NCBI RefSeq assembly: GCF_003352185.1
Contig: NZ_CP029608.1
Coordinates: 3,596,001 to 3,660,000, forward strand
Direction of reading: 5' to 3'
DNA: 64,000 nt
DNA from: Pseudomonas kribbensis
Lineage (GTDB): Bacteria > Pseudomonadota > Gammaproteobacteria > Pseudomonadales > Pseudomonadaceae
Below the pieces are notes generated by a model. That model did not search any database and was not told the DNA's origin. It worked only from the letters and a program-made list of their open reading frames with translations. The translations under genes were made by a program, and so were the position numbers. Positions 5,742 through 37,504 of this stretch are shown here, one piece after another. Each line of letters starts with the position of its first letter. The stretch's first letter is position 1.

Positions 5742-6066
5742 AGACCTTCCCCTATTTATTATTGTTAGGCCATTCGGCCTTCAAGGGCGCCGCAAGTGTG
5801 CTTCGGCGACGGCTGGTCAGAAGCATAGTCCTGAAACCCGCAATCCAGAGCCACTTCGGAAGCTGGCTCATCCTATCGGGCATTCGAAACGTCTGACAAT
5901 CGGCGCAACGTTATCTTTTGTTAACCGAAAGGGATTACAGCGGCGGCTGAATGCGCGGGCATTCGTCCGACTGATGGAAGGGAATCTTGCGTGGGGGACT
6001 TGCACGATCGGTATTATGGTATACCATCAGACGCACAGACACTCTTTATCCCCTACGGAGCAGCTC
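5742..6066. promoter_or_regulatory. 325-bp divergent promoter region
   Basis: No credible gene. It separates the Ycf48/RND operon (-) from the catabolic operon (+). The right end holds the palindromic operator at 6013-6027. Nothing else with clear structure was seen. Confidence 0.6.
6013..6027. promoter_or_regulatory. operator site A (GntR/FCD-type palindrome)
   Basis: ATTATGGTATACCAT; the 12-bp ATGGTATACCAT is a perfect palindrome. It lies 40 bp before the start of the DUF1185-like gene and contains TATTAT, which could be a -10 box. The same 14-bp core occurs at 12274, 13472, 37318 and 37491. T-G-G-T-N-T-A-C-C-A-like symmetry is usual for FCD-type GntR regulators, and such a gene is at 9960 in the operon behind this site. 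Confidence 0.75.
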
Positions 6067-6657
6067 ATGAGTTTCGAAATTCGCAAGATCGTCAGCTATG
6101 TCGAAGAGACCTTCATTGAAGGCGGCAAGGCTTCCGACACCCCGGTGACCATGGTGGGCCTGGCCGTCGTGATGAAAAACCCGTGGGTCGGCAACGGCTT
6201 TGTTGAAGACCTCAAGCCGCAGATCCGTGCCAACTGCTCCGACCTCGGCGCGATGATGGTCGAGCGTCTGGTAGGCATCATCGGCGGCGCCGAGAAGATC
6301 GAGGCTTACGGCAAGGCTGCGGTGGTCGGTGCCGATGGCGAGATCGAACACGCCTCGGCGGTGATCCACACCCTGCGCTTCGGCAACCACTACCGCGAAG
6401 CGGTCAAGGCCAAGAGCTACCTGAGCTTCACCAACAAGCGCGGCGGTCCGGGCACTTCGATCCAGATCCCGATGATGCACAAGGACGACGAAGGCCTGCG
6501 CTCGCACTACATCACCCTGGAAATGCAGATCGAAGACGCCCCGCGCGCCGACGAAATCGTCGTGGTGCTCGGTTGCGCCGACGGTGGTCGCCTGCACCCG
6601 CGCATCGGTAACCGCTACATCGATCTGGAAGAACTGGCCGCCGAAAAAGCCCAGTAA
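6067..6657 (+). CDS. AA_synth (DUF1185) family protein
   Basis: 196 residues; ATG at 6067 follows an ACGGAG ribosome site. The sequence belongs to the so-called amino acid synthesis family (PF06684/DUF1185), recognised from SFEIRKIVSYVEETFIEGG at the start, the KNPWVGNGF segment and the C-terminal GCADGGRLHPRIGNRY. The family name is historic and no reaction is firmly established. It is the first gene of a seven-gene operon (6067-11277) led by operator A; the neighbours are catabolic enzymes, so a catabolic role, for example on a cyclic amide or its product, is more likely than biosynthesis. That is inference. Confidence 0.85.
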   Translation: MSFEIRKIVSYVEETFIEGGKASDTPVTMVGLAVVMKNPWVGNGFVEDLKPQIRANCSDLGAMMVERLVGIIGGAEKIEAYGKAAVVGADGEIEHASAVIHTLRFGNHYREAVKAKSYLSFTNKRGGPGTSIQIPMMHKDDEGLRSHYITLEMQIEDAPRADEIVVVLGCADGGRLHPRIGNRYIDLEELAAEKAQ

Positions 6658-6690
6658 TCACAATAAAAAAAGGCATTGCAGGAGCGCTCC

Positions 6691-7524
6691 ATGATTCGGC
6701 CTACCGCTGAACTCACCCCGGCCGGCACCAGTTATCTGGCGACCGGCCAGGGCCACCCCGTGGTGTTGATCCACGGCGTGGGCCTGAACAAAGAAATGTG
6801 GGGCGGCCAGATCGTTGGCCTGGCCACGCAATACCGGGTGATCGCCTACGACATGCTCGGCCATGGCGCCAGCCCGCGTCCGGCCAGCGGCACCGCCCTG
6901 CTCGGTTATGCCGATCAGTTGCTGGAGCTGCTCGACCACCTGCAATTGCCGCTGGCATCGGTGATCGGTTTTTCCATGGGCGGTCTGGTGGCGCGGGCGT
7001 TTGCCCTGCATTACCCGGAGCGCCTGAAAAGCCTGGTGGTGCTCAACAGCGTGTTCAACCGCAGCGAAGAGCAGCGCGCCGGCGTCATCGCCCGCACCGC
7101 CCAAGCCGCCGAACACGGGCCGGATGCGAATGCCGAAGCGGCGCTGTCGCGCTGGTTCAGTCGTGAATATCAGGCGGCCAACCCGGCGCAGATCGCCGCG
7201 ATCCGCCAGACCCTCGCCGGCAATGACCCGCAGGGTTACCTGACCACCTACGAATTGTTCGCCACCCAGGACATGTACCGCGCCGACGACCTGGGCAGCA
7301 TCCAGGCGCCGACGCTGATCGCCACCGGCGAGCTGGACCCCGGATCGACCCCGGAAATGGCCGAGCAACTGGCCGCGCGCATTCCCGGCGCGAAGGTTGC
7401 CGTGCTGCCCGAGCAACGGCATATGATGCCGGTAGAGTCGCCTCGGCTGGTGAACCAGACGCTGCTGGAATTTCTCGAAACCGCACACGCCCGACAAAAC
7501 CATATAAAGGGGATCGTTGCATGA
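6691..7524 (+). CDS. alpha/beta hydrolase, RutD/enol-lactonase-like
   Basis: 277 residues from ATG 6691, chosen because AGGAGCG lies 5 bp ahead. Alpha/beta hydrolase fold: oxyanion loop LIHGVGLNKEMW, nucleophile elbow GFSMGG, acid in ATGELDPGS and catalytic histidine in EQRHMMPVE. Size and motif spacing match 3-oxoadipate enol-lactonase (PcaD) and RutD (carbamate-releasing hydrolase of the uracil pathway). Its last 4 bases overlap the aldehyde dehydrogenase start (ATGA), indicating translational coupling. Likely cleaves an ester, lactone or carbamate intermediate of the operon's pathway. Confidence 0.88.
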   Translation: MIRPTAELTPAGTSYLATGQGHPVVLIHGVGLNKEMWGGQIVGLATQYRVIAYDMLGHGASPRPASGTALLGYADQLLELLDHLQLPLASVIGFSMGGLVARAFALHYPERLKSLVVLNSVFNRSEEQRAGVIARTAQAAEHGPDANAEAALSRWFSREYQAANPAQIAAIRQTLAGNDPQGYLTTYELFATQDMYRADDLGSIQAPTLIATGELDPGSTPEMAEQLAARIPGAKVAVLPEQRHMMPVESPRLVNQTLLEFLETAHARQNHIKGIVA

Positions 7525-9002
7525 CACTCGCACGCTTCCAGATGTGCATCGGCGGAGAATGGGTCGACGCCCTCTCCGGCAAGACTTTCGAAAGCCTCAA
7601 CCCGGCGCTGGCCGAGCCTTGGGCCGTATTGCCCGACGCCGATGAAGCCGATGTCGAACGCGCCGTGCAAGCCGCGCAAACCGCCTTCGACAGCCCGGCA
7701 TGGCGCGGCCTGACCGCCACCGCGCGCGGCAAACTGCTGCGTCGCCTCGGTGACCTGATCGCCGAAAACAAGGAACAACTGGCGCAGCTGGAAAGCCGCG
7801 ACAACGGCAAACTGATCCGCGAGACCCGGGGTCAGGTCGGTTATCTGCCGGAGTTTTTCCACTACACCGCCGGCCTTGCCGACAAGCTCGAAGGCGGCAC
7901 CCTGCCGCTGGACAAGCCCGATCTGTTTGCCTACACCGTGCACGAAGCCATGGGTGTGGTCGCCGCGATCATTCCGTGGAACAGCCCGCTTTATCTGACT
8001 GCGATCAAACTGGCGCCAGCCCTGGCCGCCGGCAACACCATCGTGATCAAGCCGTCCGAGCACGCCTCGGCGACCATTCTGGAACTGGCGCGCCTGGCCC
8101 TCGAAGCCGGAATTCCGCCGGGCGTGGTCAACGTCGTCACCGGTTACGGCCCAAGCACGGGCGCCGCCCTCACCCGTCATCCATTGATCCGCAAGATCGC
8201 CTTCACCGGCGGCGCGGCCACGGCCCGGCATGTGGTGCGCAGCAGCGCCGAGAACTTCGCCAAGCTGTCGCTGGAACTGGGCGGCAAGTCGCCGAACATC
8301 ATTTTTGCCGACGCCGATCTCGACAGCGCGATCAACGGCGCCATCGCCGGGATTTACGCGGCGTCCGGCCAGAGTTGTGTATCCGGTTCGCGGCTGCTGG
8401 TGCAGGATGAGATCTACGACGAGTTCGTCAGCCGACTGGTGGAGCGTGCCCAGCGCATCCGCATCGGCAGTCCGCAGGACGACAACAGCGAAATGGGCCC
8501 GATGGCCACCGCGCAGCAACTGGCGGTAGTCGAAGGTCTGGTGGCCGACGCCATCGCCGAAGGCGCGCGTCTGCGCCTGGGCGGCAAGCGGCCGAGCGGC
8601 GTGGGTGACGGCTGGTTCTATGAACCGACGCTGTTCGAGTGCGACCGCAACTCGATGAAGATCATGCAGGAAGAAGTTTTCGGTCCGGTGGCTTCGGTCA
8701 TCCGCTTCAAGGACGAAGCCGAAGCGCTGGCGATTGCCAACGACTCACAGTTCGGCCTTGCCGCCGGCATCTGGACCCGAGACCTGGGCCGCGCCCATCG
8801 CCTGGCCCGGGACGTGCGCTCGGGGATCATCTGGGTCAACACCTACCGCGCAGTGTCGGCGATGGCACCGATCGGCGGCTTCAAGAACAGTGGCTATGGA
8901 CGCGAAAGCGGCATCGATTCGGTGCTGGCCTACACCGAACTGAAAACGGTGTGGATCAACCTCTCTCAGGCGCCGATGCCTGATCCGTTTGTGATGCGCT
9001 AG
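7521..9002 (+). CDS. NAD(P)-dependent aldehyde dehydrogenase
   Basis: 493 residues, full length for the superfamily. Catalytic Cys286 lies in SGQSCVSGSR and general-base Glu252 in LELGGKSPN; the NAD-binding segment IPWNSPLYLTAIKLAPAL and the C-terminal GGFKNSGYGRESG are present. It oxidises an aldehyde to the acid, presumably a semialdehyde made from the hydrolase or monooxygenase product. Third gene of the operon, overlapping the hydrolase by 4 bp and ending 12 bp before the flavin reductase. Substrate cannot be read from sequence. Confidence 0.93.
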   Translation: MTLARFQMCIGGEWVDALSGKTFESLNPALAEPWAVLPDADEADVERAVQAAQTAFDSPAWRGLTATARGKLLRRLGDLIAENKEQLAQLESRDNGKLIRETRGQVGYLPEFFHYTAGLADKLEGGTLPLDKPDLFAYTVHEAMGVVAAIIPWNSPLYLTAIKLAPALAAGNTIVIKPSEHASATILELARLALEAGIPPGVVNVVTGYGPSTGAALTRHPLIRKIAFTGGAATARHVVRSSAENFAKLSLELGGKSPNIIFADADLDSAINGAIAGIYAASGQSCVSGSRLLVQDEIYDEFVSRLVERAQRIRIGSPQDDNSEMGPMATAQQLAVVEGLVADAIAEGARLRLGGKRPSGVGDGWFYEPTLFECDRNSMKIMQEEVFGPVASVIRFKDEAEALAIANDSQFGLAAGIWTRDLGRAHRLARDVRSGIIWVNTYRAVSAMAPIGGFKNSGYGRESGIDSVLAYTELKTVWINLSQAPMPDPFVMR

Positions 9003-9014: not shown

Positions 9015-9500
9015 ATGATCGAACCCGGCATTTACAAAGACGTCATGAGCTCGTTTCCGTCCGGAGTCACGGTGGTCACCACCCTCGACCCGGACGGGGG
9101 CATCGTCGGCATCACCGCCAGCGCCTTCAGTGCGCTGTCGATTGATCCGGCGCTGGTGCTGTTCTGCCCCAACTACGCCTCCGACACCTACCCGGTGCTA
9201 CGCGACAGCAAGCGTTTCGCGATCCATTTGCTGTCCGCCGACCAGACCGCCGAGGCCTACGCCTTCGCCGGCAAAGGCAAGGACAAGGCCAACGGCATCG
9301 ACTGGCACCTGAGCGAACTGGGTAACCCGATCCTCGCCAAGGCCACGGCGATCATCGAGTGCGAACTGTGGCGCGAATACGACGGTGGCGATCACGCGAT
9401 CATTGTCGGCGCGGTGAAGAACCTGATCCTGCCGGCGCAACCGGTGACGCCAATGATCTATCACAAGGGCAAGCTCGGCGCCTTGCCGACACTGGGCTGA
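9015..9500 (+). CDS. flavin reductase (RutF/HpaC-like), copy 1
   Basis: 161 residues. Flavin-reductase domain of the HpaC/RutF type: FPSGVTVVTT near residues 14-23, TASAFSALSIDPALVLFC in the FMN site and ECELWREYDGGDHAIIVGAV near the C-terminus. Such proteins use NAD(P)H to reduce FMN or FAD for a separate monooxygenase. The AGGAG ribosome site overlaps the stop codon of the aldehyde dehydrogenase. No monooxygenase is in this operon; a luciferase-family one is at 38110 behind a second, closely related reductase (37557) with the same operator. Confidence 0.92.
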   Translation: MIEPGIYKDVMSSFPSGVTVVTTLDPDGGIVGITASAFSALSIDPALVLFCPNYASDTYPVLRDSKRFAIHLLSADQTAEAYAFAGKGKDKANGIDWHLSELGNPILAKATAIIECELWREYDGGDHAIIVGAVKNLILPAQPVTPMIYHKGKLGALPTLG

Positions 9501-9511: not shown

Positions 9512-9901
9512 ATGAGCAACGAAAAGTATGAGCAAGGCCTGAAGATCCGCACCCAGGTGCTGGGCGAAGCCTATGTGCAGCGCTCGATCGAGAACGCCGA
9601 CGACTTCACCCGCCCGCTGCAGGAAATGGTCACCGAATACTGCTGGGGCCACGTCTGGGGACGCGAGGGTCTGTCACTCAAAGAGCGCAGCATGATCAAC
9701 CTGGCGATGATCTCCGCGCTGAACCGCCCGCACGAACTCAAGCTGCATGTGCGCGGCGCCTTGCGTAACGGCCTGAGTCGTGAGCAAATACGCGAAATTC
9801 TGCTTCAGGTCGGTATTTATTGCGGCGTCCCGGCAGCCGTGGACAGTTTCCGGCTCGCCCGTGAAGCCTTCGCCGAAGCCGACGCCGAGGCCTCCAGTTA
9901 A
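9512..9901 (+). CDS. carboxymuconolactone decarboxylase family protein
   Basis: 129 residues; ATG at 9512 follows GCGGAGGA. The CMD/AhpD-like helical fold is recognised by ENADDFTRPLQEMVTEYCWG at the N-terminus and ALNRPHELKLHVRGALRNG..QIREILLQVGIYCGVPAA. This matches the PcaC subgroup (about 130 residues) and lacks a C-x-x-C peroxidase motif. Members decarboxylate gamma-carboxymuconolactone or act on similar lactones. With an enol-lactonase-like hydrolase in the same operon it may process a ring-cleavage product, but the operon has no protocatechuate genes. Confidence 0.88.
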   Translation: MSNEKYEQGLKIRTQVLGEAYVQRSIENADDFTRPLQEMVTEYCWGHVWGREGLSLKERSMINLAMISALNRPHELKLHVRGALRNGLSREQIREILLQVGIYCGVPAAVDSFRLAREAFAEADAEASS

Positions 9902-9959: not shown

Positions 9960-10712
9960 ATGAAACGCCTGCCACTCGACGACAGCTTCAAGGTCAATCG
10001 CAACCCCGTCACCCTGCGCGAAATCGTGCTGGATAAACTGCGAAGCGCCATCATGAACTTCCAGCTGCTGCCGGGCGATCGCCTGGTGGAGCGCGATCTG
10101 TGCGATCGCCTGGGCGTGAGCCGTACGTCGGTGCGCGAAGCCTTGCGTCACCTGGAATCCGAAGGCCTGGTGGAGTTCGCCGACGCCAAGGGCCCGCGCG
10201 TGGCGATCATCACCCTCGCCGATGCCGTCGACATCTATGAGCTGCGCTGCGTGCTCGAAGGCCTGATCGTCCAGTTGTTCACCCTGCGCGCCAAGGCCAA
10301 GGACATCAAGGCCCTGGAAAAAGCCCTCGACGAGAACCGCAAGGCACTCAAGGACGGCGAGCTGCAGCAGGTGATCGACTCGGTGCAGGGTTTCTACGAC
10401 GTGCTGCTGGAAGGCTCCGGCAACCATGTCGCGGCCACACAGTTGCGTCAGTTGCAGGCGCGCATCAGCTACCTGCGGGCGACCTCGGTGTCCCAGGAAA
10501 ACCGTCGCGGCGCGAGCAACCAGGAAATGGAAAAAATGGTCGAGGCGATCAAGAGCGGCGATGCGCTGGCGGCGCATCAGGCGTGCGTCGATCACGTCCG
10601 CGCTGCGGCTGCCGTGGCCCTCGATTATCTGAAGCGCAAACAGGAAGAGACCGGCGCCACACCGGCGATCACCCTGCCCATCGCGCTGAAAGAACCACGC
10701 ATAGGTCACTGA
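9960..10712 (+). CDS. GntR-family regulator, FCD subfamily (probable regulator of the operator A-E regulon)
   Basis: 250 residues. The N-terminal winged helix-turn-helix (residues about 20-85) contains VERDLCDRLGVSRTSVREAL; the FCD domain (about 95-225) begins DIYELRCVLEGLI and carries candidate metal ligands in QACVDHV. It is the sixth gene of the operon under operator A, 58 bp after the decarboxylase-like gene, so it would control its own operon. FCD regulators commonly bind short T-G-G-T-n-n-A-C-C-A-like palindromes, and five such sites (A-E) lie in this window. Usually such proteins are repressors released by a pathway acid. The link to the sites is inference. Confidence 0.9.
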   Translation: MKRLPLDDSFKVNRNPVTLREIVLDKLRSAIMNFQLLPGDRLVERDLCDRLGVSRTSVREALRHLESEGLVEFADAKGPRVAIITLADAVDIYELRCVLEGLIVQLFTLRAKAKDIKALEKALDENRKALKDGELQQVIDSVQGFYDVLLEGSGNHVAATQLRQLQARISYLRATSVSQENRRGASNQEMEKMVEAIKSGDALAAHQACVDHVRAAAAVALDYLKRKQEETGATPAITLPIALKEPRIGH

Positions 10713-10713
10713 C

Positions 10714-11277
10714 ATGTTCAGCCCGAGCTTTTGCCCGAAATGCGGTGGCGCCGACCTCGGTCAGCAAGTGCCGCCGGGCGATACGCACGAGCGCCTGATG
10801 TGCCGCGGCTGCGGCTACATCCACTATGTGAACCCGAAAATCATCGCCGGCTGCATCATCGAGCAGGACGGCAAATACCTCTTGTGCCAACGGGCGATTC
10901 CCCCGCGCCCGGGCACCTGGACCCTGCCCGCCGGTTTCATGGAAAGCGGCGAAACCACCGAACAGGCTGCCCTGCGCGAAGTCTGGGAAGAAAGCGGCGT
11001 ACGCGCGGAAATCGTCTCGCCGTACTCGATCTTCAGCGTGCCGAAGATCAGCGAGGTCTACATCATCTTCCGCGCCCTCGCACTGGAAATCACCGGCCAG
11101 TACGGCCCGGAAACCCGGGACTGCAAATTCTTCGCCCCCGAAGACATCCCGTGGGAGCAGATCTACTACCCGGCAATCCGGCAGATCCTCGAACGCTACA
11201 TCGAGGAACGCCAGGCCGGGGTGTATGGCATGTACATGGGCAATGACGACAGCGGCAAGATTCATTTCATGCGTTGA
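10714..11277 (+). CDS. Nudix hydrolase with N-terminal zinc ribbon
   Basis: 187 residues. Cys7, Cys10, Cys30 and Cys33 form a zinc ribbon (FCPKCGG, MCRGCGY). The Nudix box is complete: G-x5-E-x7-R-E-x2-E-E-x-G spans GFMESGETTEQAALREVWEE plus SGV. Zinc-ribbon Nudix proteins of this length hydrolyse nucleotide derivatives such as NADH, ADP-ribose or flavin nucleotides. It begins one base after the GntR gene stop, so it is the last gene of the operon. In a flavin-dependent pathway a role on FAD is possible but unproven. Confidence 0.9.
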   Translation: MFSPSFCPKCGGADLGQQVPPGDTHERLMCRGCGYIHYVNPKIIAGCIIEQDGKYLLCQRAIPPRPGTWTLPAGFMESGETTEQAALREVWEESGVRAEIVSPYSIFSVPKISEVYIIFRALALEITGQYGPETRDCKFFAPEDIPWEQIYYPAIRQILERYIEERQAGVYGMYMGNDDSGKIHFMR

Positions 11278-11956: not shown

Positions 11957-12250
11957 TTACGGCGCCATCCCCTCCACAATAACGATCTCCGCCCTCGCCC
12001 ACTCCTCGCGATAGCTCTTCGCTTCCTGATACGCCGCCGAGCGGTAGCACGCCACCGCCTGCTCGTAGCTGTCGAATTCAATCACCACGCTGCGCTGCGG
12101 CGTCGCCCTGCCTTCCATCGCTTCGCTGCGCCCGCCTCTGGCCAAGAACTTCGCGCCGAACTCGGCGAACGCCTTCGGCGCGCGCTGGGTGTATTGGCTG
12201 TAGTGATCGGGATCGGTGATGTCCACGTGAGCAATCCAGTACGCCTTCAT
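11957..12250 (-). CDS. DUF1330 domain protein
   Basis: 97 residues, the usual length of DUF1330 (a ferredoxin-like alpha+beta barrel). Signature: KAYWIAHVDITDPDHYSQYT at the start, FLARGG, and VVIEFDSYEQAVACYRSAAY. Function of the family is not established. It diverges from the RibB-like gene with only 65 bp between, and operator B in that gap stands 23 bp before its start, so it is probably co-regulated with the flavin-dependent pathway. Confidence 0.88.
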   Translation of the reverse strand: MKAYWIAHVDITDPDHYSQYTQRAPKAFAEFGAKFLARGGRSEAMEGRATPQRSVVIEFDSYEQAVACYRSAAYQEAKSYREEWARAEIVIVEGMAP

Positions 12251-12273: not shown

Positions 12274-12287
12274 ATTATGGTATACCA
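12274..12287. promoter_or_regulatory. operator site B
   Basis: ATTATGGTATACCA, identical to the core at site A; TGGTATACCA is a perfect 10-bp palindrome. It is centred in the 65-bp gap between the diverging DUF1330 and RibB-like genes and can control both. Confidence 0.75.
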
Positions 12288-12315: not shown

Positions 12316-13425
12316 ATGGCCTTCAACAGCATCGAAGAAATCATCGAAGATTATCGCCTCGGCAAAATGGTGTTGCTGGTCGATGACGAAGACCGGGAAA
12401 ACGAAGGCGACCTGCTGCTGGCCGCCGACCGTTGCACGCCCGAGGCGATCAGTTTCATGGCCCGTGAAGCCCGGGGGCTGATTTGCCTGACGTTGACCGA
12501 CGATCATTGCCAGCGCCTGGGGCTGGAGCAAATGGTGCCGAGCAATGGCAGCGTGTTCAGTACCGCGTTCACGGTTTCCATCGAAGCGGCGGTCGGTGTG
12601 ACTACGGGCATTTCTGCTGCCGACCGCGCCTGCACGGTGGCTGCTGCGGTGGCGCCGAACGCACGCGCAGAAGACCTGGTGCAGCCCGGCCATATCTTCC
12701 CGCTGCGCGCCAAGGAAGGTGGCGTGCTGACCCGCGCCGGTCACACCGAGGCCGGTTGCGATCTGGCGCGGCTCGCCGGGTTCACGCCCGCCTCGGTGAT
12801 CGTCGAGGTGATGAACGACGACGGCACCATGGCCCGCCGCCCTGATCTGGAAGTCTTCGCCCGTAAGCACGGGATCAAGATCGGCACCATCGCCGACCTG
12901 ATCCACTATCGCCTGAGCACCGAACACACCATCGAGCGCATCGGCGAGCGGGAGTTGCCGACGGTGCATGGCACCTTCCGTTTGATCACCTTCGAAGACC
13001 GCATCGAGGGTGGTGTGCACATGGCGATGGTCATGGGCGAACTGCGCCGTGAAGAGCCGACGCTGGTGCGCGTGCATGTGATCGATCCGCTGCGGGATCT
13101 GGTCGGTGCCGAATACAGCGGGCCGACGAACTGGACGCTGTGGGCAGCGCTGCAACGGGTCGCGGCCGAAGGGCATGGTGTGGTTGTGGTGCTGGCCAAT
13201 CATGAATCGTCGCAGGCGTTGCTGGAGCGGGTGCCGCAACTGACTCAGCCGCCACGGCAGTTCAGTCGCTCGCAGTCGCGGATCTATTCGGAGGTCGGCA
13301 CCGGGGCGCAAATTCTGCAGAACCTGGGCGTCGGCAAGCTGCGCCACCTGGGCCCGCCGCTGAAATATGCCGGTTTGACCGGCTACGATCTGGAAGTGGT
13401 CGAGAGCATTCCGTTCACCGAATAA
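12316..13425 (+). CDS. 3,4-dihydroxy-2-butanone 4-phosphate synthase with degenerate GTP cyclohydrolase II-like domain (RibBX type)
   Basis: 369 residues from ATG 12316; an earlier in-frame codon at 12277 would place the start inside operator B. The RibB domain (residues about 3-205) has the acidic loop [10 protein letters not shown] (residues 23-32), the TTGISAADR segment and [16 protein letters not shown], so ribulose-5-phosphate to DHBP activity is expected. The C-terminal RibA-like domain (about 210-369) lacks the S-L-R-C-D-C-G zinc/catalytic cysteines; the equivalent stretch reads [14 protein letters not shown]. This is the RibBX arrangement common in pseudomonads. It is away from the rib biosynthetic cluster and under operator B, suggesting pathway-specific supply of a flavin precursor. 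Confidence 0.9.
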
Positions 13426-13471: not shown

Positions 13472-13496
13472 TGGAATACCATAATATGATATTCCA
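13472..13496. promoter_or_regulatory. operator site C
   Basis: An imperfect 25-bp palindrome with arms TGGAATACCA and TGATATTCCA around TAATA. Read on the minus strand it contains the core ATTATGGTATTCCA, the same as site D. It lies 95 bp before the ABC-transporter operon and just after the RibB-like gene. Confidence 0.72.
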
Positions 13497-13591: not shown

Positions 13592-14617
13592 ATGGTGTTG
13601 AACAAAGCTGCAACCGCGATCTTTTTTGCGGGACTGCTGAGCGTGACCGGTCAGGCCGCGATGGCCGCCGAGAGTGTGAACTTTGTCAGCTGGGGCGGTA
13701 GCACCCAGGATGCGCAGAAACAGGCCTGGGCTGATCCGTTCAGCAAGGCCAGCGGCATCACCGTCGTGCAGGACGGCCCGACCGACTACGGCAAACTCAA
13801 GGCCATGGTCGAAAGCGGCAACGTGCAATGGGACGTGGTCGACGTCGAAGCCGACTTCGCCCTGCGCGCCGCCTCCGAAGGCCTGCTCGAACCCCTCGAT
13901 TTCAAACAGATCCAGCGCGACAAGATCGACCCGCGTTTCGTCAGCGACTACGGCGTCGGTTCGTTCTTCTTCTCCTTCGTCCTCGGCTACAACGAGGGCA
14001 AGCTCGGCGCCGGCAAGCCGCAGGACTGGAGCGCGCTGTTCGACACCAAGACCTACCCCGGCAAACGCGCCCTGTACAAATGGCCGAGCCCCGGCGTGCT
14101 TGAACTGGCTCTGCTCGCCGACGGCGTGCCGGCCGACAAGCTCTACCCGCTGGACCTGGATCGCGCCTTCAAGAAACTCGACACCATCAAGAAAGACATC
14201 GTCTGGTGGGGCGGCGGCGCCCAGTCGCAGCAACTGCTGGCCTCCGGTGAAGCGAGCATGGGCCAGTTCTGGAACGGCCGGATTCATGCCCTGCAAGAAG
14301 ACGGCGCACCGGTGGGCGTGAGCTGGAAACAGAACCTCGTAATGGCTGACATCCTGGTCGTGCCAAAGGGTTCGAAAAACAAGGACGCGGCGATGAAGTT
14401 CCTGGCCAGCGCCAGCAGCGCGAAGGGCCAGGCCGACTTCTCCAACCTGACCGCCTACGCCCCGGTCAACGTCGACAGTGTGCAGCGTCTGGATTCGACG
14501 CTGGCCCCGAACCTGCCGACTGCCTACGCTAAGGATCAGATCACTCTTGATTTCGCGTACTGGGCCAAGAACGGCCAGGCCATCGCGACACGGTGGAACG
14601 AATGGCTGGTCAAATGA
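13592..14617 (+). CDS. ABC transporter substrate-binding protein (family 1, PotD/PotF-like)
   Basis: 341 residues with a Sec signal peptide (MVLNKAATAIFFAGLLSV.., cleavage after AAMAA). The mature part begins ESVNFVSWGGSTQDAQKQ, followed by DPFSKASGITVVQDGPTDYGKLKAM, typical of the putrescine/spermidine/iron family-1 binding proteins. It captures the substrate in the periplasm for the permeases and ATPase encoded next. The last 4 bases overlap the first permease start. The operon is preceded by operator C, so uptake should be co-induced with the catabolic genes. The ligand is unknown; an organic cation or nitrogenous compound is plausible. Confidence 0.9.
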   Translation: MVLNKAATAIFFAGLLSVTGQAAMAAESVNFVSWGGSTQDAQKQAWADPFSKASGITVVQDGPTDYGKLKAMVESGNVQWDVVDVEADFALRAASEGLLEPLDFKQIQRDKIDPRFVSDYGVGSFFFSFVLGYNEGKLGAGKPQDWSALFDTKTYPGKRALYKWPSPGVLELALLADGVPADKLYPLDLDRAFKKLDTIKKDIVWWGGGAQSQQLLASGEASMGQFWNGRIHALQEDGAPVGVSWKQNLVMADILVVPKGSKNKDAAMKFLASASSAKGQADFSNLTAYAPVNVDSVQRLDSTLAPNLPTAYAKDQITLDFAYWAKNGQAIATRWNEWLVK

Positions 14618-15561
14618 AAATGGCGGCCACCGCGTCCCGTCCCTCCACTGCCACCGGGAGCGCCGCCAGCGCTGCCGGGTCGGCCGCCGGAAAAAAGGCC
14701 AGTGCCATGGCGCCAGCCCCGTCCCTCAAGCAACGCTGGCGCGGCGCCGGCAACCTCGCGCCGGCGCTGCTGTTCCTCGGCCTGTTCTTTCTCGCGCCGT
14801 TGATTGGCCTGCTGTTGCGCGGCGTTCTCGAACCGGTGCCGGGGTTTGGCAACTACGAACAACTGTTCGCCAACTCGGCGTACGCACGGGTGCTGTTCAA
14901 CACCTTCTCGGTGGCCGGACTGGTGACGGTGTTCAGCCTGCTGCTGGGCTTCCCGCTGGCCTGGGCAATCACCTTGGTGCCGCGCGGCTGGGGTCGCTGG
15001 ATCCTCAACATCGTGCTGTTGTCGATGTGGACCAGCCTCCTCGCCCGCACCTATTCGTGGCTGGTGTTGCTGCAGGCTTCGGGCGTGATCAACAAGGCGC
15101 TGATGGCGCTGGGCATCATCGATCAACCGTTGGAAATGGTGCACAACCTGACCGGCGTGGTGATCGGCATGAGCTACATCATGATCCCGTTCATCGTGCT
15201 GCCGTTACAGGCGACCATGCAGGCCATCGACCCGATGATCCTGCAGGCCGGCTCGATCTGTGGCGCCAGTCCGTGGACCAACTTCTTCCGGGTGTTCCTG
15301 CCGCTGTGCCGGCCGGGCCTGGCGTCCGGCGGGTTGATGGTGTTCGTGATGTCGCTCGGTTACTACGTCACCCCGGCGCTGCTGGGCGGGGCGCAGAACA
15401 TGATGCTGCCGGAGTTCATCATTCAGCAGGTGCAATCGTTCCTCAACTGGGGGCTGGCCAGCGCCGGCGCCGCGTTGCTGATCGTCATCACCCTGGTGCT
15501 GTTCTACTTCTACCTGAAGCTTCAGCCGGAATCCCCGGTTGGCGCCAGTAACGCGAGGTAA
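14614..15561 (+). CDS. ABC transporter permease (PotH/PotB-like)
   Basis: 315 residues from ATG 14614, which overlaps the stop codon of the binding-protein gene (ATGA). An unusual Ala/Ser/Gly-rich cytoplasmic N-terminus of about 40 residues precedes six membrane helices beginning NLAPALLFLGLFFLAPLIGL. The coupling loop QAGSICGASPWTNFFRVFLP corresponds to the EAA motif that contacts the ATPase. First of two permeases of the importer under operator C. Confidence 0.9.
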   Translation: MKMAATASRPSTATGSAASAAGSAAGKKASAMAPAPSLKQRWRGAGNLAPALLFLGLFFLAPLIGLLLRGVLEPVPGFGNYEQLFANSAYARVLFNTFSVAGLVTVFSLLLGFPLAWAITLVPRGWGRWILNIVLLSMWTSLLARTYSWLVLLQASGVINKALMALGIIDQPLEMVHNLTGVVIGMSYIMIPFIVLPLQATMQAIDPMILQAGSICGASPWTNFFRVFLPLCRPGLASGGLMVFVMSLGYYVTPALLGGAQNMMLPEFIIQQVQSFLNWGLASAGAALLIVITLVLFYFYLKLQPESPVGASNAR

Positions 15562-15567
15562 GCCGAC

Positions 15568-16377
15568 ATGCTCCTGACTCCCAATGCCATGAGCCGCCGG
15601 ATGCGCTTCGGCCTGTACGCCACCACCGGGCTGATCGCACTGTTTCTGCTGCTGCCGATCGTGTTCATCGTGCTGCTGTCGTTCGGCTCGTCCCAGTGGC
15701 TGGTGTTCCCGCCACCGGGCTGGACGCTGAAATGGTACGGCCAGTTCTTCTCCAACGCCGACTGGATGAACGCCGCGGCGGCCAGCCTCAAGGTCGCGGT
15801 GCTGACCACGATCTGCGCCGTGGCCCTCGGTTTGCCGACTGCCTTTGCGCTGGTGCGCGGACGCTTCCCCGGCCGGGAAATGCTCTACGGCCTGTTCACC
15901 CTGCCGATGATCGTGCCGCTGGTGATCATCGCCGTGGCGGTGTACGCGCTGTTCCTCAAGCTCGGCTACACCGGGACGATGTTCGCCTTCGTCGTCAGCC
16001 ATGTGATCGTCGCACTGCCGTTCACCATCATCTCGATCATCAACTCGCTGAAGCTGTTCGATCAGTCGATTGAAGACGCGGCGGTGATCTGCGGGGCGTC
16101 ACGCCTGCAAGCGGTGTTCAAGGTGACCTTTCCGGCGATTCGTCCGGGAATGGTCGCCGGCGCCCTCTTCGCCTTTCTGGTTTCGTGGGACGAAGTGGTG
16201 CTCAGCGTGATGATGGCCAGCCCGACCCTGCAAACCCTTCCCGTGAAAATGTGGACCACCCTGCGTCAGGACCTGACGCCCGTCATCGCCGTCGCTTCGA
16301 CGCTGCTGATCGGCCTGTCGGTGTTGGTCATGGTGATCGCCGCCGCGCTGCGCCGGCGCAACGAAATCAGCGCCTGA
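15568..16377 (+). CDS. ABC transporter permease (PotI/PotC-like)
   Basis: 269 residues, six predicted membrane helices. The EAA coupling loop is EDAAVICGASRLQAVFKVTF followed by PAIRPGM. Begins 6 bp after the first permease gene. Partner permease of the same importer. Confidence 0.92.
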   Translation: MLLTPNAMSRRMRFGLYATTGLIALFLLLPIVFIVLLSFGSSQWLVFPPPGWTLKWYGQFFSNADWMNAAAASLKVAVLTTICAVALGLPTAFALVRGRFPGREMLYGLFTLPMIVPLVIIAVAVYALFLKLGYTGTMFAFVVSHVIVALPFTIISIINSLKLFDQSIEDAAVICGASRLQAVFKVTFPAIRPGMVAGALFAFLVSWDEVVLSVMMASPTLQTLPVKMWTTLRQDLTPVIAVASTLLIGLSVLVMVIAAALRRRNEISA

Positions 16378-16394
16378 GCGCCCAGGAGTACGAC

Positions 16395-17549
16395 ATGAGT
16401 GCCGTGATCAAAGACGCATCCCTGCAGAACGACAAACCCCTGGTCAGCCTGCGCAACCTGAACAAGCACTACGGCGATTTCGCCGCCGTGGACAACATCT
16501 CGCTGGACATCAAGGACGGCGAATTCCTGACCTTCCTCGGCTCCAGCGGATCGGGCAAAAGCACCACGCTGTCGATGCTCGCCGGCTTCGAAACCCCGAG
16601 CAGCGGCGAGATCCTGGTCAACGGCCAGTCTCTGGTGAATGTGCCGCCGCACAAGCGCGACATCGGCATGGTGTTCCAGCGCTATTCGCTGTTCCCGCAT
16701 CTGTCGGTGCGCGACAACATCGCGTTCCCGCTGGCGATCCGCAAACTCGCGGCGGCCGAGCGTGACAAGCGTGTCGATGCGATGCTGAAACTGGTGCAAC
16801 TCGAACAATTCGCCCACCGCCGCCCTTCGCAACTGTCCGGCGGCCAGCAGCAACGGGTCGCCATCGCTCGCGCTCTGGTCTACGAGCCACGCATCCTGCT
16901 GATGGACGAACCTCTGGGTGCGCTGGACAAGAAGCTGCGCGAAGACTTGCAGGACGAGTTGCGCCAGTTGCACCGCCGCCTCGGCATCACCATCGTCTAC
17001 GTGACCCACGATCAGGAAGAAGCCATGCGCCTGTCCCAGCGCATCGCGATTTTCAGTCACGGCAAGATTGTCGGGCTCGGCAGCGGTTATGACCTGTACC
17101 AGAATCCGCCGAATGCGTTTGTCGCGTCGTTCCTAGGCAACTCGAACTTCCTCAAGCTCAAGGCACAGGGCAACGGGGCGGCGAGTTTTGAAGGCCAGTC
17201 GCTGTCGATCCGGCTAACCGCTGGATTGCAGACCGGGCAGGATGTTTTGCTGATGGTGCGCCCGGAAAAGGCTTTGGCGTTGAGTGCGCAGCAAGCGGCG
17301 AGTGAATCGTTGGCGGCGGGCTGGAACGAGGTTTCGGCGAAGGTGGTCGAGGTGCTGTTTCTGGGCGAGAGCCAGACTTGCAGTGTGGTCACTTCGGGCG
17401 GGACTTCGATGACGGTGAAAGCATTGTCGGCGGCGGGTATGCCGTTGAAGGCTGGGGATCCGGTGCAGGTGCGCTGGGCGACGGCTGATGCCTGCGTCTA
17501 TACCGAGTGGGCCGAAAGCGATCTGAACAAAGCCGCGGGTGCTCACTGA
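16395..17549 (+). CDS. ABC transporter ATP-binding protein (PotA/PotG-like)
   Basis: 384 residues from ATG 16395 behind AGGAG. Walker A GSSGSGKST, signature LSGGQQQRVAIARAL, Walker B ILLMDEP and the H-loop YVTHDQEEAM are all intact. Residues about 255-375 form a C-terminal TOBE domain (VLLMVRPEKAL, VEVLFLGESQTC), as in PotA. It energises the importer with the two permeases. Last gene of the operon, followed by a strong terminator. Confidence 0.94.
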   Translation: MSAVIKDASLQNDKPLVSLRNLNKHYGDFAAVDNISLDIKDGEFLTFLGSSGSGKSTTLSMLAGFETPSSGEILVNGQSLVNVPPHKRDIGMVFQRYSLFPHLSVRDNIAFPLAIRKLAAAERDKRVDAMLKLVQLEQFAHRRPSQLSGGQQQRVAIARALVYEPRILLMDEPLGALDKKLREDLQDELRQLHRRLGITIVYVTHDQEEAMRLSQRIAIFSHGKIVGLGSGYDLYQNPPNAFVASFLGNSNFLKLKAQGNGAASFEGQSLSIRLTAGLQTGQDVLLMVRPEKALALSAQQAASESLAAGWNEVSAKVVEVLFLGESQTCSVVTSGGTSMTVKALSAAGMPLKAGDPVQVRWATADACVYTEWAESDLNKAAGAH

Positions 17550-29457: not shown

Positions 29458-29541
29458 GGTTTGTTCATCCGGGGGTTGCCAGTACGTGGAAGCGACTCTA
29501 ACGTGACTGGAAATTACCGACTAACGCCGAAGAGCCGCAAG

Positions 29542-30330
29542 ATGCCGCCAAAAGGACACGACAAAAGCGTCAGACGCAGCATTCCCGGGCTGCCGAGCCT
29601 GCCGCGTCCGTTGTATGGACGCACTGAATCACTGCCCAATCGCGCCCTGACCCGCCGCCACAGTCATCCGTGGGTGCAATTGTCTTACGCGATCCAGGGC
29701 GTGCTCGAAGTGCAGACCGCCGCCGGTCGTTTCGTCGCGCCGCCAGAGCGCGCCGTATGGATTCCGGCGGGGGTGCCGCATCGGGTATTCAGTTCGCCGC
29801 ACACGGAAATGCGCAGCCTGTACATCGATTGCAGCGTGGCGGGTTGGGCGCTGGAGCGTTGTCATGTGCTCGGCGTCAGCGATCTTCTGCGGGAGCTGAT
29901 CCGGGCCTTCAGTCAGATTCCTGTCGAGTATGACCAGAGCGGCCCTCACGGACGCCTGGCGCAGGTGATCCTCGATCAATTGGCCGAAGCCCCGCAAATC
30001 GACCTGATGCTGCCACTGCCTCAGGACATCCGTTTGCGGCAGATCTACCAAAGTCTCGAGCAACATCCGGAACAGCAGACCACACTCAGTCACTGGAGCG
30101 AAAAGTTCGGCGTGACCGAGAAAACCCTCAGCCGGCTGTTCCTGCGCGACACCGGCCTGACCTTCCGCGCATGGCGCCAGCGCTTGCGTTTGCTGGGAGC
30201 GCTGACGCCGCTGGAGCGTGGCGAACGGGTCACCGAAGTGGCTCTGGCCTGCGGTTACGATTCGACATCGGCGTTCATTGCAGCCTTTCGCCAACAGTTT
30301 GGCGAGACGCCTGGAGAATTTTTTCGCTGA
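29542..30330 (+). CDS. AraC-family transcriptional regulator with cupin sensor
   Basis: 262 residues from ATG 29542. N-terminal cupin-like domain (RRHSHPWVQLSYAIQGVLEV, WIPAGVPHRVFS) then a double helix-turn-helix at about 160-260 (TLSHWSEKFGVTEKTLSRLF; VTEVALACGYDSTSAFIAAF). Divergent from the SBF transporter gene. Confidence 0.9.
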   Translation: MPPKGHDKSVRRSIPGLPSLPRPLYGRTESLPNRALTRRHSHPWVQLSYAIQGVLEVQTAAGRFVAPPERAVWIPAGVPHRVFSSPHTEMRSLYIDCSVAGWALERCHVLGVSDLLRELIRAFSQIPVEYDQSGPHGRLAQVILDQLAEAPQIDLMLPLPQDIRLRQIYQSLEQHPEQQTTLSHWSEKFGVTEKTLSRLFLRDTGLTFRAWRQRLRLLGALTPLERGERVTEVALACGYDSTSAFIAAFRQQFGETPGEFFR

Positions 30331-30468
30331 TTTTTGTCGATATTTATCGAATTAGGACATGCCAATCGACAAACTTCAGGGTAGAGTTTCGCCCATCAAG
30401 AATGATTGACACGTTTCGACGATAACAATGATCAACCACCCTTTAGCGAACCTGTCGGCGGTAACAGC

Positions 30469-32181
30469 ATGATCGAAGTCACTGAAGTCTCCATTGCTCA
30501 ACTGCGCTCGGCGCTCGAATCCGGCCAGACCACCGCGGTTGAACTGGTCCAGGCCTATCTGGCGCGTATCGATGCCTATGACGGCCCGCAAACCGCCACC
30601 GCCCTGAACGCGGTGATCGTGCGCAACCCCGAGGCCTTGAAGGAAGCCGAGGCGTCCGATGCCCGCCGCGCCAAGGGCGAAACCCTCGGTCCGCTGGACG
30701 GCATCCCCTACACCGCCAAGGACAGCTATCTGGTCAAAGGCCTGACTGCTGCGTCCGGCAGCCCTGCGTTCGCCGATCTCGTAGCCCAGCGCGATGCATT
30801 CACCATCGAGCGCCTGCGTGCGGGCGGCGCGATCTGCCTGGGCAAGACCAATATGCCGCCGATGGCCAATGGCGGGATGCAGCGCGGGGTCTACGGTCGC
30901 GCTGAAAGTCCTTACAACGCCGCTTATCTGACTGCGCCGTTTGCTTCCGGCTCGTCGAATGGTGCTGGCACTGCCACCGCTGCTAGCTTCTCGGCATTCG
31001 GTCTGGCGGAAGAGACCTGGTCGAGCGGTCGCGGCCCGGCGTCGAATAATGGCTTGTGTGCCTACACACCATCGCGCGGCGTAATCTCGGTGCGCGGCAA
31101 CTGGCCATTGACGCCGACCATGGACGTGGTGGTGCCCTACGCTCGCACCATGGCCGATCTGCTGGAAGTCCTCGACGTAGTCGTGGCCGAAGACACCGAC
31201 ACCCGTGGCGACCTGTGGCGCCTGCAACCCTGGGTGCCGATCCCGAGCGTCGCCTCGGTGCGCCCTGCTTCCTACCTTGATCTGGCGGTGAAAAGTGATG
31301 CCCTGGCTGGCAAACGCCTCGGCGTGCCGCGCATGTACATCAACGCCGACCCTGAGGCCGGCACCAGCGACGAGCCAGGCATCGGCGGCCCGACCGGGCA
31401 ACGCATCAACACCCGCGCCTCGGTGATCGACCTGTGGAAACAGGCTCGCCAGGCCCTCGAGGCTGCCGGCGCCGAAGTGATTGAAGTGGATTTCCCGCTG
31501 GTCTCCAATTGCGAAGGCGATCGTCCGGGCGCACCGACCGTGTTCAATCGCGGCATCGTCTCCAAAGAGTTCATGCACCACGAACTGTGGGACCTGTCGG
31601 CCTGGGCCTTCGATGATTTTCTGCGCGCCAACGGTGATCCGAAACTCAATCAACTGGCGGACGTTGACGGGCCGAAAATCTTCCCGCACGACCCGGGCAC
31701 CCTGCCCAACCGTGAAGGCGATCTCGCCGCCGGCATGGACGAATACGTGCGCATGGCCGAACGCGGCATCACGCCGTGGGATCAGATTCCGACCCTGCCG
31801 GACGGTCTGCGCGGCCTGGAGAAGACCCGCAAGCTCGACCTCGAAGACTGGATGGATCGCCTCGGCCTCGACGCCGTGCTGTTCCCGACCAACGCCGACG
31901 TGGGCCCGGCGGATGCCGACGTCAACCCGGCCTCGGCGGACATCGCCTGGAGCAACGGCATCTGGGTCGCCAACGGCAACCTCGCGATCCGCCACCTCGG
32001 TGTGCCGACCGTCACCGTGCCGATGGGCGTGATGGCCGACATCGGCATGCCGGTGGGGCTGACGTTTGCCGGTCGCGCCTATGACGATTCGACGTTGCTG
32101 CGTCTGGCAGCGGCGTTCGAAGCGACCGGGTCGAAGCGACTGGTGCCGCCACGTACGCCAGCCCTGGCGGCAGGCAAGTAA
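30469..32181 (+). CDS. amidase (amidase-signature family)
   Basis: 570 residues from ATG 30469 (MIEVTEVSIAQL); the ribosome site is weak, and an upstream ATG would only add a non-conserved tail. The Ser-cisSer-Lys triad can be placed: Lys84 in YTAKDS, Ser162/163 in ASGSSNGAG and Ser185/186 in ETWSSGRG. The nucleophile segment differs from the usual DTGGSIR, so the substrate may be unusual. It hydrolyses an amide to acid plus ammonia. No obvious operon partner; a terminator follows. Confidence 0.88.
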   Translation: MIEVTEVSIAQLRSALESGQTTAVELVQAYLARIDAYDGPQTATALNAVIVRNPEALKEAEASDARRAKGETLGPLDGIPYTAKDSYLVKGLTAASGSPAFADLVAQRDAFTIERLRAGGAICLGKTNMPPMANGGMQRGVYGRAESPYNAAYLTAPFASGSSNGAGTATAASFSAFGLAEETWSSGRGPASNNGLCAYTPSRGVISVRGNWPLTPTMDVVVPYARTMADLLEVLDVVVAEDTDTRGDLWRLQPWVPIPSVASVRPASYLDLAVKSDALAGKRLGVPRMYINADPEAGTSDEPGIGGPTGQRINTRASVIDLWKQARQALEAAGAEVIEVDFPLVSNCEGDRPGAPTVFNRGIVSKEFMHHELWDLSAWAFDDFLRANGDPKLNQLADVDGPKIFPHDPGTLPNREGDLAAGMDEYVRMAERGITPWDQIPTLPDGLRGLEKTRKLDLEDWMDRLGLDAVLFPTNADVGPADADVNPASADIAWSNGIWVANGNLAIRHLGVPTVTVPMGVMADIGMPVGLTFAGRAYDDSTLLRLAAAFEATGSKRLVPPRTPALAAGK

Positions 32182-34460: not shown

Positions 34461-34473
34461 TTTTAAATCTGGA

Positions 34474-35780: not shown

Positions 35781-35810
35781 CAATGCCCGGCGAGTGGCCG
35801 GGCATTGTTT
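35781..35810 (-). terminator. intrinsic terminator of the NCS1 permease gene
   Basis: CAATGCCCGGC-cactc-GCCGGGCATTG on the minus strand, 18 bp after the permease stop codon; the trailing T-run is short. Confidence 0.75.
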
Positions 35811-35827
35811 GAACAGACGGCGAACGG

Positions 35828-37234
35828 TCAGTCAGTAAAACCCAATTTTGCCGCCCTGCTCTGCTGCGTCTGCCCGCGCGTCGCCAGGCAGTAATACAAC
35901 GGGCAGGTCACGATCAGGCCGACCAGCCATGACAGGTCCGCACCGTCCACCAGGTTGGCGTAGGGGCCGACGTACAACGAAGTGTTGGCAAACGGCAACT
36001 GCACGATGATGCCGATGAAATAGGCAATGATCGCGTGCAGATTGAAGCGCCCGTAGATCCCGCCATCGGCGCGGAAGATCGAGGCGATGTCGTAGCTGCC
36101 GCGCTTGATCAGGTAGAAGTCGATCAGGTTGATCGACGCCCACGGCACCAACACCAGCAGCAGCGCCAGAATCAGCCCGATGAACTCGGAAATGAAATCC
36201 GCCGAAGCCCCCAGCGCGACCACGCAGCAGCCCGCCAGCACGACGCTCGACAGGATCACTCGCACCTTGATGCTTGGCGTCCACTGGCTGGCGAAGGTCT
36301 GGATCGAGGTGATGATCGACAGCACCGCGCCATACAGATTCAGCGCGTTGTGGCTGATGATGTTGAGCAGGAACAGCACCATCAGAATCGGCCCCAGCCA
36401 ACCGGTGGACTGCTTGACCGCCGCCATCGCCTCGGTGCCCTCGGGTGTCGCAAGCACCGCCACCGCACCGAAGGTGAACGACAGAATCGTGCCCAGCGTG
36501 GCGCCCAGGTAAGTCGCGATAAATGGCTTGCTGATACCGATGTCCGCCGGCAGGTAGCGGGAATAGTCCGAGACGTACGGCGAGAAACTGATCTGCCAGA
36601 TGATCCCCAGCGACACCGTCGCCAGCCACCCGGACAGATTGAAGCTGCCACGGGTAAAGAAGTCCGCCGGCAAGTCATGGGCAAAGATGTAGATGAAGCC
36701 GGCCAGCAACGCGCTGCCCATCACCCAGGTGCCGATGCGGTTCAGTGTGTGGATGAAGTTGTAGCCGATCACGCCGATGGCCGTGGCGCTGAGGGCGCCG
36801 ATCAGAATGCTCAATGGCGCCGGCACCGACGGCGCAATGCCGACGATGGACTTGCCGGCGAGCACGATGTTGGAAATGAAGAAGCCGATATAAATGATCG
36901 CCGCGAAGAACACGATCAGCAGCGCACCATAACGCCCGAACTGGCCACGACTCTGCACCATCTGCGGAATACCCATGCGCGGGCCTTGCGCCGACGCCAG
37001 GGCGATCACCACACCGCCGATCATGTGCCCCAGCGCAATCGCCAGCAGCCCCCAGAACAGGTCGAGATGAAACACCTGGACCACCATGGCGCCGGTGACG
37101 ATGGGCAGTGGCGCAATGTTGGTGCTGAACCAAAGAGTGAAAAGGTCGCGGGCCTTCCCGTGGCGTTCCGCGAGTGGGACGTAGTCGACCGTGTGATTCT
37201 CGATCAACGGATCTTGCCGGGACATCTGGGACAT
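35828..37234 (-). CDS. NCS1-family permease (cytosine permease-like), copy 1
   Basis: 468 residues and 12 membrane helices. CodB-like NCS1 features: FTLWFSTNIAPLPIVTGAMV in helix 1, AQGPRMGIPQMVQSRGQFGR, and FSPYVSDYSRYLP. NCS1 proteins import nucleobases, hydantoins, allantoin and related vitamins with H+ or Na+. Operator D lies 83 bp upstream, so it should be induced with the flavin-dependent pathway; its substrate is probably the pathway substrate. A close paralogue is at 57750. No deaminase gene is nearby, so the CodB label is only structural. Confidence 0.92.
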   Translation of the reverse strand: MSQMSRQDPLIENHTVDYVPLAERHGKARDLFTLWFSTNIAPLPIVTGAMVVQVFHLDLFWGLLAIALGHMIGGVVIALASAQGPRMGIPQMVQSRGQFGRYGALLIVFFAAIIYIGFFISNIVLAGKSIVGIAPSVPAPLSILIGALSATAIGVIGYNFIHTLNRIGTWVMGSALLAGFIYIFAHDLPADFFTRGSFNLSGWLATVSLGIIWQISFSPYVSDYSRYLPADIGISKPFIATYLGATLGTILSFTFGAVAVLATPEGTEAMAAVKQSTGWLGPILMVLFLLNIISHNALNLYGAVLSIITSIQTFASQWTPSIKVRVILSSVVLAGCCVVALGASADFISEFIGLILALLLVLVPWASINLIDFYLIKRGSYDIASIFRADGGIYGRFNLHAIIAYFIGIIVQLPFANTSLYVGPYANLVDGADLSWLVGLIVTCPLYYCLATRGQTQQSRAAKLGFTD

Positions 37235-37317
37235 ATATGAACTCGATTGGGTCTGTTCTTATCGTTGTATGAAGCCAAACCGGGGACGTACTTCGTCGCC
37301 CCTCAGATGAACACCAT

Positions 37318-37331
37318 ATTATGGTATTCCA
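37318..37331. promoter_or_regulatory. operator site D
   Basis: ATTATGGTATTCCA; overlapping it, ACCATATTATGGT is a 13-bp palindrome. The core equals that of site C. 83 bp upstream of the NCS1 permease start. Confidence 0.72.
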
Positions 37332-37490
37332 ACATTTTCACAAGACTGATCCGCTGTTTACGGCGGTAACTGATCCGGCATCCTCCCCGATAGCCAGGCT
37401 TTGCGGCTAGACGAAAGCCCCGTAAATGTTGAGTTTCCGACGAATGCACCACGTTTATCGTTTCACCAAAAAAGCGCTTGCAATCGATGT

Positions 37491-37504
37491 ATTACGGTAT
37501 ACCA
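37491..37504. promoter_or_regulatory. operator site E
   Basis: ATTACGGTATACCA followed by TCAGAC, as at site A (13 of 14 core bases and the following TCAGAC identical). 52 bp upstream of flavin reductase 2. Confidence 0.74.

Follow-up and report, generated by a model that had tools for sequence, protein, structure and literature searches.

Five exact copies of one palindrome in a 64,000-nucleotide stretch of Pseudomonas kribbensis DNA (contig NZ_CP029608.1, positions 3,596,001 to 3,660,000; hereafter the window, in whose own numbering all positions are given) are in all likelihood the operators of a single FCD-type GntR repressor. The repressor would be the product of the gene at 9960, for which we propose the name TgnR, and it would control a regulon for the catabolism of trigonelline (N-methylnicotinate), the pathway to which the genes most likely belong. 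The sites, their place at promoters and the way they are conserved together with regulator and pathway genes can be read directly from the sequence; we infer the binding, the ligand and the sign of regulation. When substrate is absent, a dimer of TgnR bound to ATGGTATACCAT, within or next to the -10/-35 region, would block RNA polymerase at the promoters of the catabolic operon (to which the TgnR gene itself belongs), of the divergent DUF1330 and ribBA-like genes, of an ABC importer, of an NCS1 permease and of a flavin reductase/monooxygenase pair. Trigonelline or a ring-opened intermediate would release TgnR, and this release would permit coordinated uptake, supply of flavin mononucleotide (FMN), ring opening and product conversion. 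Repression is the most likely mode because of the position of the dyads and the habit of the family.

Five exact copies of one palindrome at five promoters

The palindrome ATTAYGGTATWCCA occurs exactly five times in the 6,324,282-base single-contig genome, always within the window. Operator A (6013..6026, plus strand) lies upstream of the DUF1185-led operon that holds the GntR gene, operator B (12274..12287, plus strand) between the divergent DUF1330 (minus strand) and ribBA-like (plus strand) genes, and operator C (13472..13485, minus strand) upstream of a PotD/PotB/PotC/PotA-like importer. Operator D (37318..37331, plus strand) is predicted to serve the NCS1 permease on the minus strand and operator E (37491..37504, plus strand) flavin reductase 2 and the LLM monooxygenase. 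A direct pattern search returned all five 14-mers where a preliminary description of this DNA had placed them, and its statement that each lies within about 100 bp of a start codon holds, the distances ranging from 23 to 106 bases (A, 40; B, 28 to the ribBA-like gene and 23 to the divergent DUF1330 gene; C, 106; D, 83; E, 52). The two sub-classes it had distinguished are real as well, with A, B and E reading GGTATACCA and C and D reading GGTATTCCA, and a genome-wide pattern search brought up no exact copies besides these five, all at promoters.

A chance motif is rejected by shuffling, by the genome-wide count and by the co-occurrence in Pseudomonas described below. With up to three mismatches, the window holds 16 matches where 3.9 are expected, a number reached in none of 100 shuffles, and a reversed-pattern control gave no exact match in the whole 6.32 Mb genome. 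One-mismatch copies are found at three further places in the genome, two of them within reading frames that stay open over more than 500 codons and one (820831) outside any long frame. At up to two mismatches there are 29 matches against 8 for the control pattern in P. kribbensis, and 31 against 17 in G070, a Pseudomonas genome in which the GntR ortholog was not found; four of these weak matches have identical letters in both genomes, for which reason we do not tie the weak matches to the regulator. The idea of a single regulated stretch across the window is rejected, since no exact site occurs among the genes at 18.4-35.8 kb (Ppx/GppA, a CBS-domain pyridoxal-phosphate enzyme, a two-component system, a DyP peroxidase, TerC and others) and since the modules are unlinked in several relatives.

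Conservation within Pseudomonas

We compared 80 named Pseudomonas loci around the GntR gene and, separately, a genus sample of 199 genomes, calling a GntR ortholog at an E value of at most 1e-60. Site A is exact in all 80 named loci, while sites B and C are exact in 69 of the 69 loci holding the ribBA-like gene and 69 of the 69 holding the importer gene, respectively. The sites are better kept than the rest of their upstream stretches, with mean identities of 1.00 against 0.63 for A, 0.98 against 0.79 for B and 0.91 against 0.76 for C. The 80 loci contain 242 exact matches, 238 of them at most 250 bp from the target genes and the other four at most 100 bp from a locus end. Among the 199 genomes, 114 have the GntR ortholog, 115 an exact site, 111 a match to TgnB (the LLM monooxygenase) and 113 a match to the importer protein, the latter only 63-65% identical in two genomes (G159 and G206). 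The preliminary description had suggested comparing genomes that keep or lose the 9960 gene, and this comparison came out in favor of the pairing: all 114 genomes with the ortholog have an exact site as opposed to 1 of the 85 without it (Fisher p about 2e-56, a value that ignores shared ancestry).

In several of the single-contig genomes, the modules have come apart, with the importer 943 kb (G003), 1.10 Mb (G211) or 1.21 Mb (G019) and TgnB 1.25 Mb (G019) or 883 kb (G015) from the GntR gene, and there the sites stay beside the remote importer or TgnB genes. We also examined 30 TgnB loci of 4 kb for sites belonging to TgnB and flavin reductase 2. Where no flavin reductase 2 gene precedes it within 1.5 kb, TgnB has its own site in every case (nine of nine loci), compared with 6 of the 21 loci where one does.

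Conservation beyond Pseudomonas

Since a class-wide sample held TgnB in only 2 of 321 genomes, P. kribbensis included, we turned to plasmid records. The other of the two, L155 (4 kb, LLM 53% identical, not reaching DUF1185, no site), enters no count. A protein search of the plasmid records gave 325 with a TgnB relative, from which 27 loci were chosen for spread of genera and identity (13, then 14), with the Acinetobacter and Caballeronia Lep1P3 records extended. In Burkholderia multivorans the genes for DUF1330, GntR, flavin reductase, importer, DUF1185, hydrolase, monooxygenase, dehydrogenase, NCS1 permease and a carboxymuconolactone-decarboxylase (CMD) family protein form one compact cluster with nearly the same parts as in Pseudomonas, although no RibB-like or Nudix gene is in view there.

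A GntR protein 36-45% identical to that of 9960 is present in 20 of the plasmid loci, mostly beside DUF1185 but about 10 kb from it in Aquabacterium and Caballeronia Lep1P3. In 19 of them the 200 bp preceding DUF1185 contain the core TGGTATACCA with no more than one mismatch, and among the 1024 palindromic 10-mers there this core ranks first, the next reaching 6 loci. Within the first 13 loci chosen, Arthrobacter included, a site is found at up to 150 bp in 12; 500 first-order shuffles averaged 0.04 such loci and never exceeded 2. In contrast, in Thalassospira, two Agrobacterium, Mesorhizobium 131-2-5, Ensifer adhaerens and Rhizobium phaseoli, the six loci whose 17 kb yielded no related GntR, a search of that whole stretch found no copy with up to one mismatch. 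The difference (19 with and 1 without a site, compared with 0 and 6) gives a Fisher p of 3e-5 with Arthrobacter left out; once Arthrobacter is counted, the site is present in 19 of 21 loci that have a linked GntR of any kind. Co-occurrence, sites at unlinked loci and cross-class conservation thus strongly support the proposal of the preliminary description that one regulon spans the five units, and its candidate regulator, the 9960 protein, is likewise supported, as the palindrome tracks a related GntR in alpha-, beta- and gammaproteobacteria. The same palindrome with the same kind of repressor in such distant bacteria very probably reflects a conserved on/off switch.

Some plasmid loci stand out in other respects. 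The four annotated loci of the six without a related GntR (L200, L201, L203 and L204) have a helix-turn-helix regulator of roughly 600 residues in its place and three of them an amino-acid-type importer; possibly they encode a sister pathway for another pyridine compound. The plasmid pDCT5 of Arthrobacter dokdonellae (L188) bears a trigonelline-like cluster with two DUF1185 genes, a tautomerase, a riboflavin kinase and a Nudix gene, perhaps the outcome of a horizontal transfer that brought the oxygenase under another control. On pSymA of Sinorhizobium meliloti (L189), a tgn-like cluster that has its GntR and an operator with one mismatch is a close neighbor of noeA/noeB, a position matching that reported for trigonelline genes in the symbiotic region.

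Placement of the sites at their promoters

Operator A sits within a conserved block, GTATTATGGTATACCATCAGAC, at about 6011-6032. Read along the gene, A (GTATTATGGTATACCATCAGAC) and E (GTATTACGGTATACCATCAGAC) present a largely symmetrical 22-base block, while C and D both read TGGAATACCATAATATG. Operator C overlaps a second, two-mismatch copy at 13483-13496, the two arms (13472-13483 and 13485-13496) being 92% complementary. C is found between TTGCAC and TAATAT, and D between TTGTGA and TAATAT of the minus strand, which places these two dyads between a -35-like and a -10-like hexamer; A and E have theirs at the -10 position. A -35-like CTTG stands at an equal distance from the 14-mer, give or take one base, at A, C, D and E. 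These hexamer matches are suggestive only, and the best-scoring promoter pairs at A and B differ from the reading proposed here.

The sub-classes match orientation: A and E run along their own genes, B lies between divergent genes, and C and D run against theirs. The two sub-classes therefore seem to differ in where the dyad sits on its promoter and give no evidence for two regulators, a second one being unnecessary where sub-class follows placement. Autoregulation of the GntR gene through operator A is predicted.

The candidate regulator and its relatives

The gene at 9960..10712 (plus strand) encodes a protein with a GntR helix-turn-helix (PF00392, 62.3 bits, cut-off 27) and an FCD domain (PF07729, 87.0 bits, cut-off 24.3). 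It reaches no NCBIfam cut-off, the best model being phnR_burk at 125 bits against 271.5. FCD-type GntR repressors of catabolic regulons include the FadR, UxuR, LldR and VanR kinds, and the system resembles them in the GntR helix-turn-helix combined with FCD, in a short dyad with GT...AC half-sites, in having its own operon under the operator and in a palindrome conserved at the presumed target promoters. A helix-turn-helix segment, LGVSR(T/S).(V/I)RE, is common to the tgn-type GntR rows of our alignment.

Besides falling short of every NCBIfam cut-off, the 9960 protein differs from those kinds in the FCD domain, in which histidines bind metal in typical members. It has Tyr146 and Met190 in place of the canonical histidines and keeps His212, so that two of the three positions checked are replaced and it falls outside the metal-binding subclass by its histidines. 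Tyr is found at 146 in all 23 tgn-type rows, the window protein included, and Met at 190 in 21, Leu and Ile taking its place in the other two; this count leaves out Arthrobacter L188, whose GntR keeps the canonical histidines, the unrelated L207_2 (like L188 His, His, His) and L182_3, which is gapped there. The loss of the histidines suggests a different ligand mode. The system also lies outside the UxuR/ExuR hexuronate regulon: its targets are the parts listed here, and the Uxu regulator model scores 32 bits against a cut-off of 442. A literature search for the operator letters together with GntR or UxuR found nothing.

A probable pathway for trigonelline

The assignment to trigonelline, a pathway that the preliminary description had not named, follows from the names borne by relatives of the LLM, dehydrogenase and hydrolase proteins and from the TgnF-like DUF1185 gene. 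Among the matches listed, three of 120 homologues of the LLM protein (P0046 and P0054, each 83% identical, and P0086, 79%) bear the name flavin-dependent trigonelline monooxygenase, oxygenase component; two of 120 for the dehydrogenase (P0221 and P0225 (69%)) are named (Z)-2-((N-methylformamido)methylene)-5-hydroxybutyrolactone dehydrogenase; and one of 120 for the hydrolase (P0258 (87%)) is named (E)-2-((N-methylformamido)methylene)succinate hydrolase. The remaining listed homologues have generic names, other enzyme names (such as 3-oxoadipate enol-lactonase for the hydrolase) or none. A TgnB-type LLM oxygenase with a TgnA flavin reductase is thus assigned by homology and homologue names, TgnC and TgnD by homology to those 69% and 87% identical named proteins, and TgnF by membership of the same Pfam family (DUF1185). 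The part of PMC7913881 consulted describes TgnF of Acinetobacter baylyi as a homologue of HcdD, a DUF1185-family protein. In Rhizobium, Sinorhizobium, Caballeronia and Aquabacterium, the annotation places a succinate-semialdehyde dehydrogenase of the TgnE type next to the cluster.

The trigonelline pathway tgnABCDEF of A. baylyi ADP1 was reportedly described by Perchat in 2018. An LLM oxygenase, a flavin reductase, an aldehyde dehydrogenase, an alpha/beta hydrolase and a DUF1185 protein are common to it and to P. kribbensis. In the latter, the genes are split into separate units joined by one operator, there are in addition two importers, a pair of small flavin reductases and CMD, Nudix, DUF1330 and RibB-like genes, and under none of the window's sites was a TgnE-like gene recognized. 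The Rut pyrimidine pathway (RutA/RutF/RutD/RutG), with flavin-dependent ring opening, a flavin reductase, an alpha/beta hydrolase and a dedicated permease, is alike in outline. However, the P. kribbensis hydrolase and both reductases score far under the RutD and RutF cut-offs; the RutA model is absent among the 25 of 30 NCBIfam families listed for the LLM protein.

Alternative explanations

Several observations weigh against a trigonelline regulon under TgnR. Names for trigonelline steps are borne by only three, two and one of the 120 matches listed, and among the genes under a site in the window, the only part of the genome considered for it, no TgnE-like succinate-semialdehyde dehydrogenase was identified. 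G070 has one exact site and no GntR ortholog. Flavin reductase 2 lacks a directly preceding copy with up to one mismatch in 8 of its 21 loci, which keep only site D some 220 bp off. Thioclava has the GntR protein but only a two-mismatch site, and Arthrobacter combines a 78% identical LLM protein with a 31% identical GntR and no site. The six loci without a related GntR may serve another substrate or pathway, since their LLM proteins are more distant (40-45%) and their gene order, where annotated, is different. Within Pseudomonas, moreover, gene, site and pathway are inherited together, and the 199-genome table alone cannot tell a regulator from a passenger.

It is very improbable, for the following reasons, that the sites belong to a transcription factor encoded elsewhere in the genome and that the GntR gene is a mere passenger of the operon. 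The linkage in Pseudomonas is compatible with such an arrangement, and FCD regulators with similar, TGGTATACCA-like operators exist, UxuR among them, but across three classes the palindrome accompanies the related GntR in 19 of 20 loci and is missing from all six TgnB-like loci where no such GntR turned up, and an exact site occurs in only 1 of 85 Pseudomonas genomes lacking the gene. There is, in our estimation, a small chance that TgnR is an activator, or dual-acting, rather than a plain repressor. The sign of regulation is not readable from sequence, yet dyads placed between -35-like and -10-like hexamers at C and D and at the -10 position at A and E suit steric repression, and most FCD GntR proteins are repressors.

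It also seems rather unlikely that the same regulator and operators serve a different N-methylpyridinium or pyridine compound, such as homarine or one derived from nicotinamide, with the trigonelline names over-extended by homology. The substrate of two-component LLM monooxygenases varies, the importer type differs among relatives, and the names are database names on few listed homologues rather than assays. On the other hand, homologues of three of the enzymes bear the names of trigonelline steps, TgnF too has a homologue here, and the related S. meliloti cluster lies near nodulation genes on pSymA. The location agrees with the symbiotic (pSym) region in which Goldmann is said to have found trigonelline catabolism genes in 1991. 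As for homarine, the part of PMC8269262 consulted argues that TgnA/TgnB are unlikely to act on it and notes that Ruegeria pomeroyi grows less effectively on homarine than on trigonelline.

Implications

Trigonelline is a common plant betaine whose degrading enzymes are already known, while a literature search of open PMC papers found no regulator of the pathway. A candidate regulator, its operator and a presumed target set can now be named, and their value lies in the breadth of conservation and in the direct testability of the regulator-operator pair, which can also be read in rhizobia. In these bacteria trigonelline genes are reported, by Boivin in 1990, to be induced under symbiotic conditions.

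A broader proposal, to which we give slightly less than even credence, is that TgnR is a pan-proteobacterial regulator of plant-betaine catabolism. It would represent an FCD subfamily without the metal site that senses a pyridinium compound or its ring-opened product directly, with an operator kept across at least three classes, rhizobial symbiotic plasmids included, and with a regulon that in Pseudomonas is scattered and extended to a flavin-biosynthesis paralog. If so, FMN supply would rise together with a flavin-hungry monooxygenase. The regulon may be an example in which a flavin-dependent pathway is coupled to the supply of its flavin.

Genes of the proposed regulon and their neighbors

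Window proteins were assigned by Pfam and NCBIfam profile searches. The first unit, on the plus strand, begins with the TgnF-like DUF1185/AA_synth gene (6067..6657; PF06684, solved relatives 2qtp and 3byq), followed by the TgnD-like alpha/beta hydrolase (6676..7524 as the listed frame, the true start maybe a few codons later), the TgnC-like aldehyde dehydrogenase (7521..9002, from a profile match and homologue names), flavin reductase 1 (9015..9500; PF01613) and the CMD family protein (9512..9901; PF02627); beyond the GntR gene comes a Nudix hydrolase (10714..11277; PF00293). The DUF1330 gene (11957..12250, minus strand; PF07045) has homologues in the Burkholderia and Klebsiella clusters. The importer genes (13592..17549, plus strand) encode a solute-binding protein, two permeases and an ATPase, as judged by profile matches. 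At the far side, the NCS1 permease (35828..37234, minus strand; PF02133) is followed by the TgnA-like flavin reductase 2 (37557..38042, plus strand; PF01613) and the TgnB-like LLM monooxygenase (38110..39153, plus strand; PF00296).

The ribBA-like gene under operator B (12316..13425, plus strand; NF009132, 816 bits) encodes a RibB-like protein with a cyclohydrolase-II-like second half and is one of three DHBP synthases in the genome. We propose that it supplies FMN for the pathway. The presence of three DHBP synthases, and of riboflavin kinase and Nudix genes beside the Arthrobacter cluster, fits such a coordinated flavin supply, although it is no proof. GTP-cyclohydrolase-II has a zinc-binding cysteine pattern. 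By eye, this is absent from the cyclohydrolase-II-like half of all three paralogs (12316-13425, L178 and L180), and we dropped the notion that the copy in the window is an unusual degenerate form.

Between the two halves of the regulon, and without an exact site, lie genes for an amidase and an AraC-type regulator with a cupin-like domain (30406-32181 and 28786-30330, both on the plus strand). Next to the trigonelline genes, a frame of 3542 residues on the minus strand (39519-50147) combines a two-partner-secretion (TPS) domain with haemagglutinin repeats, as in a large exoprotein of the two-partner-secretion type.

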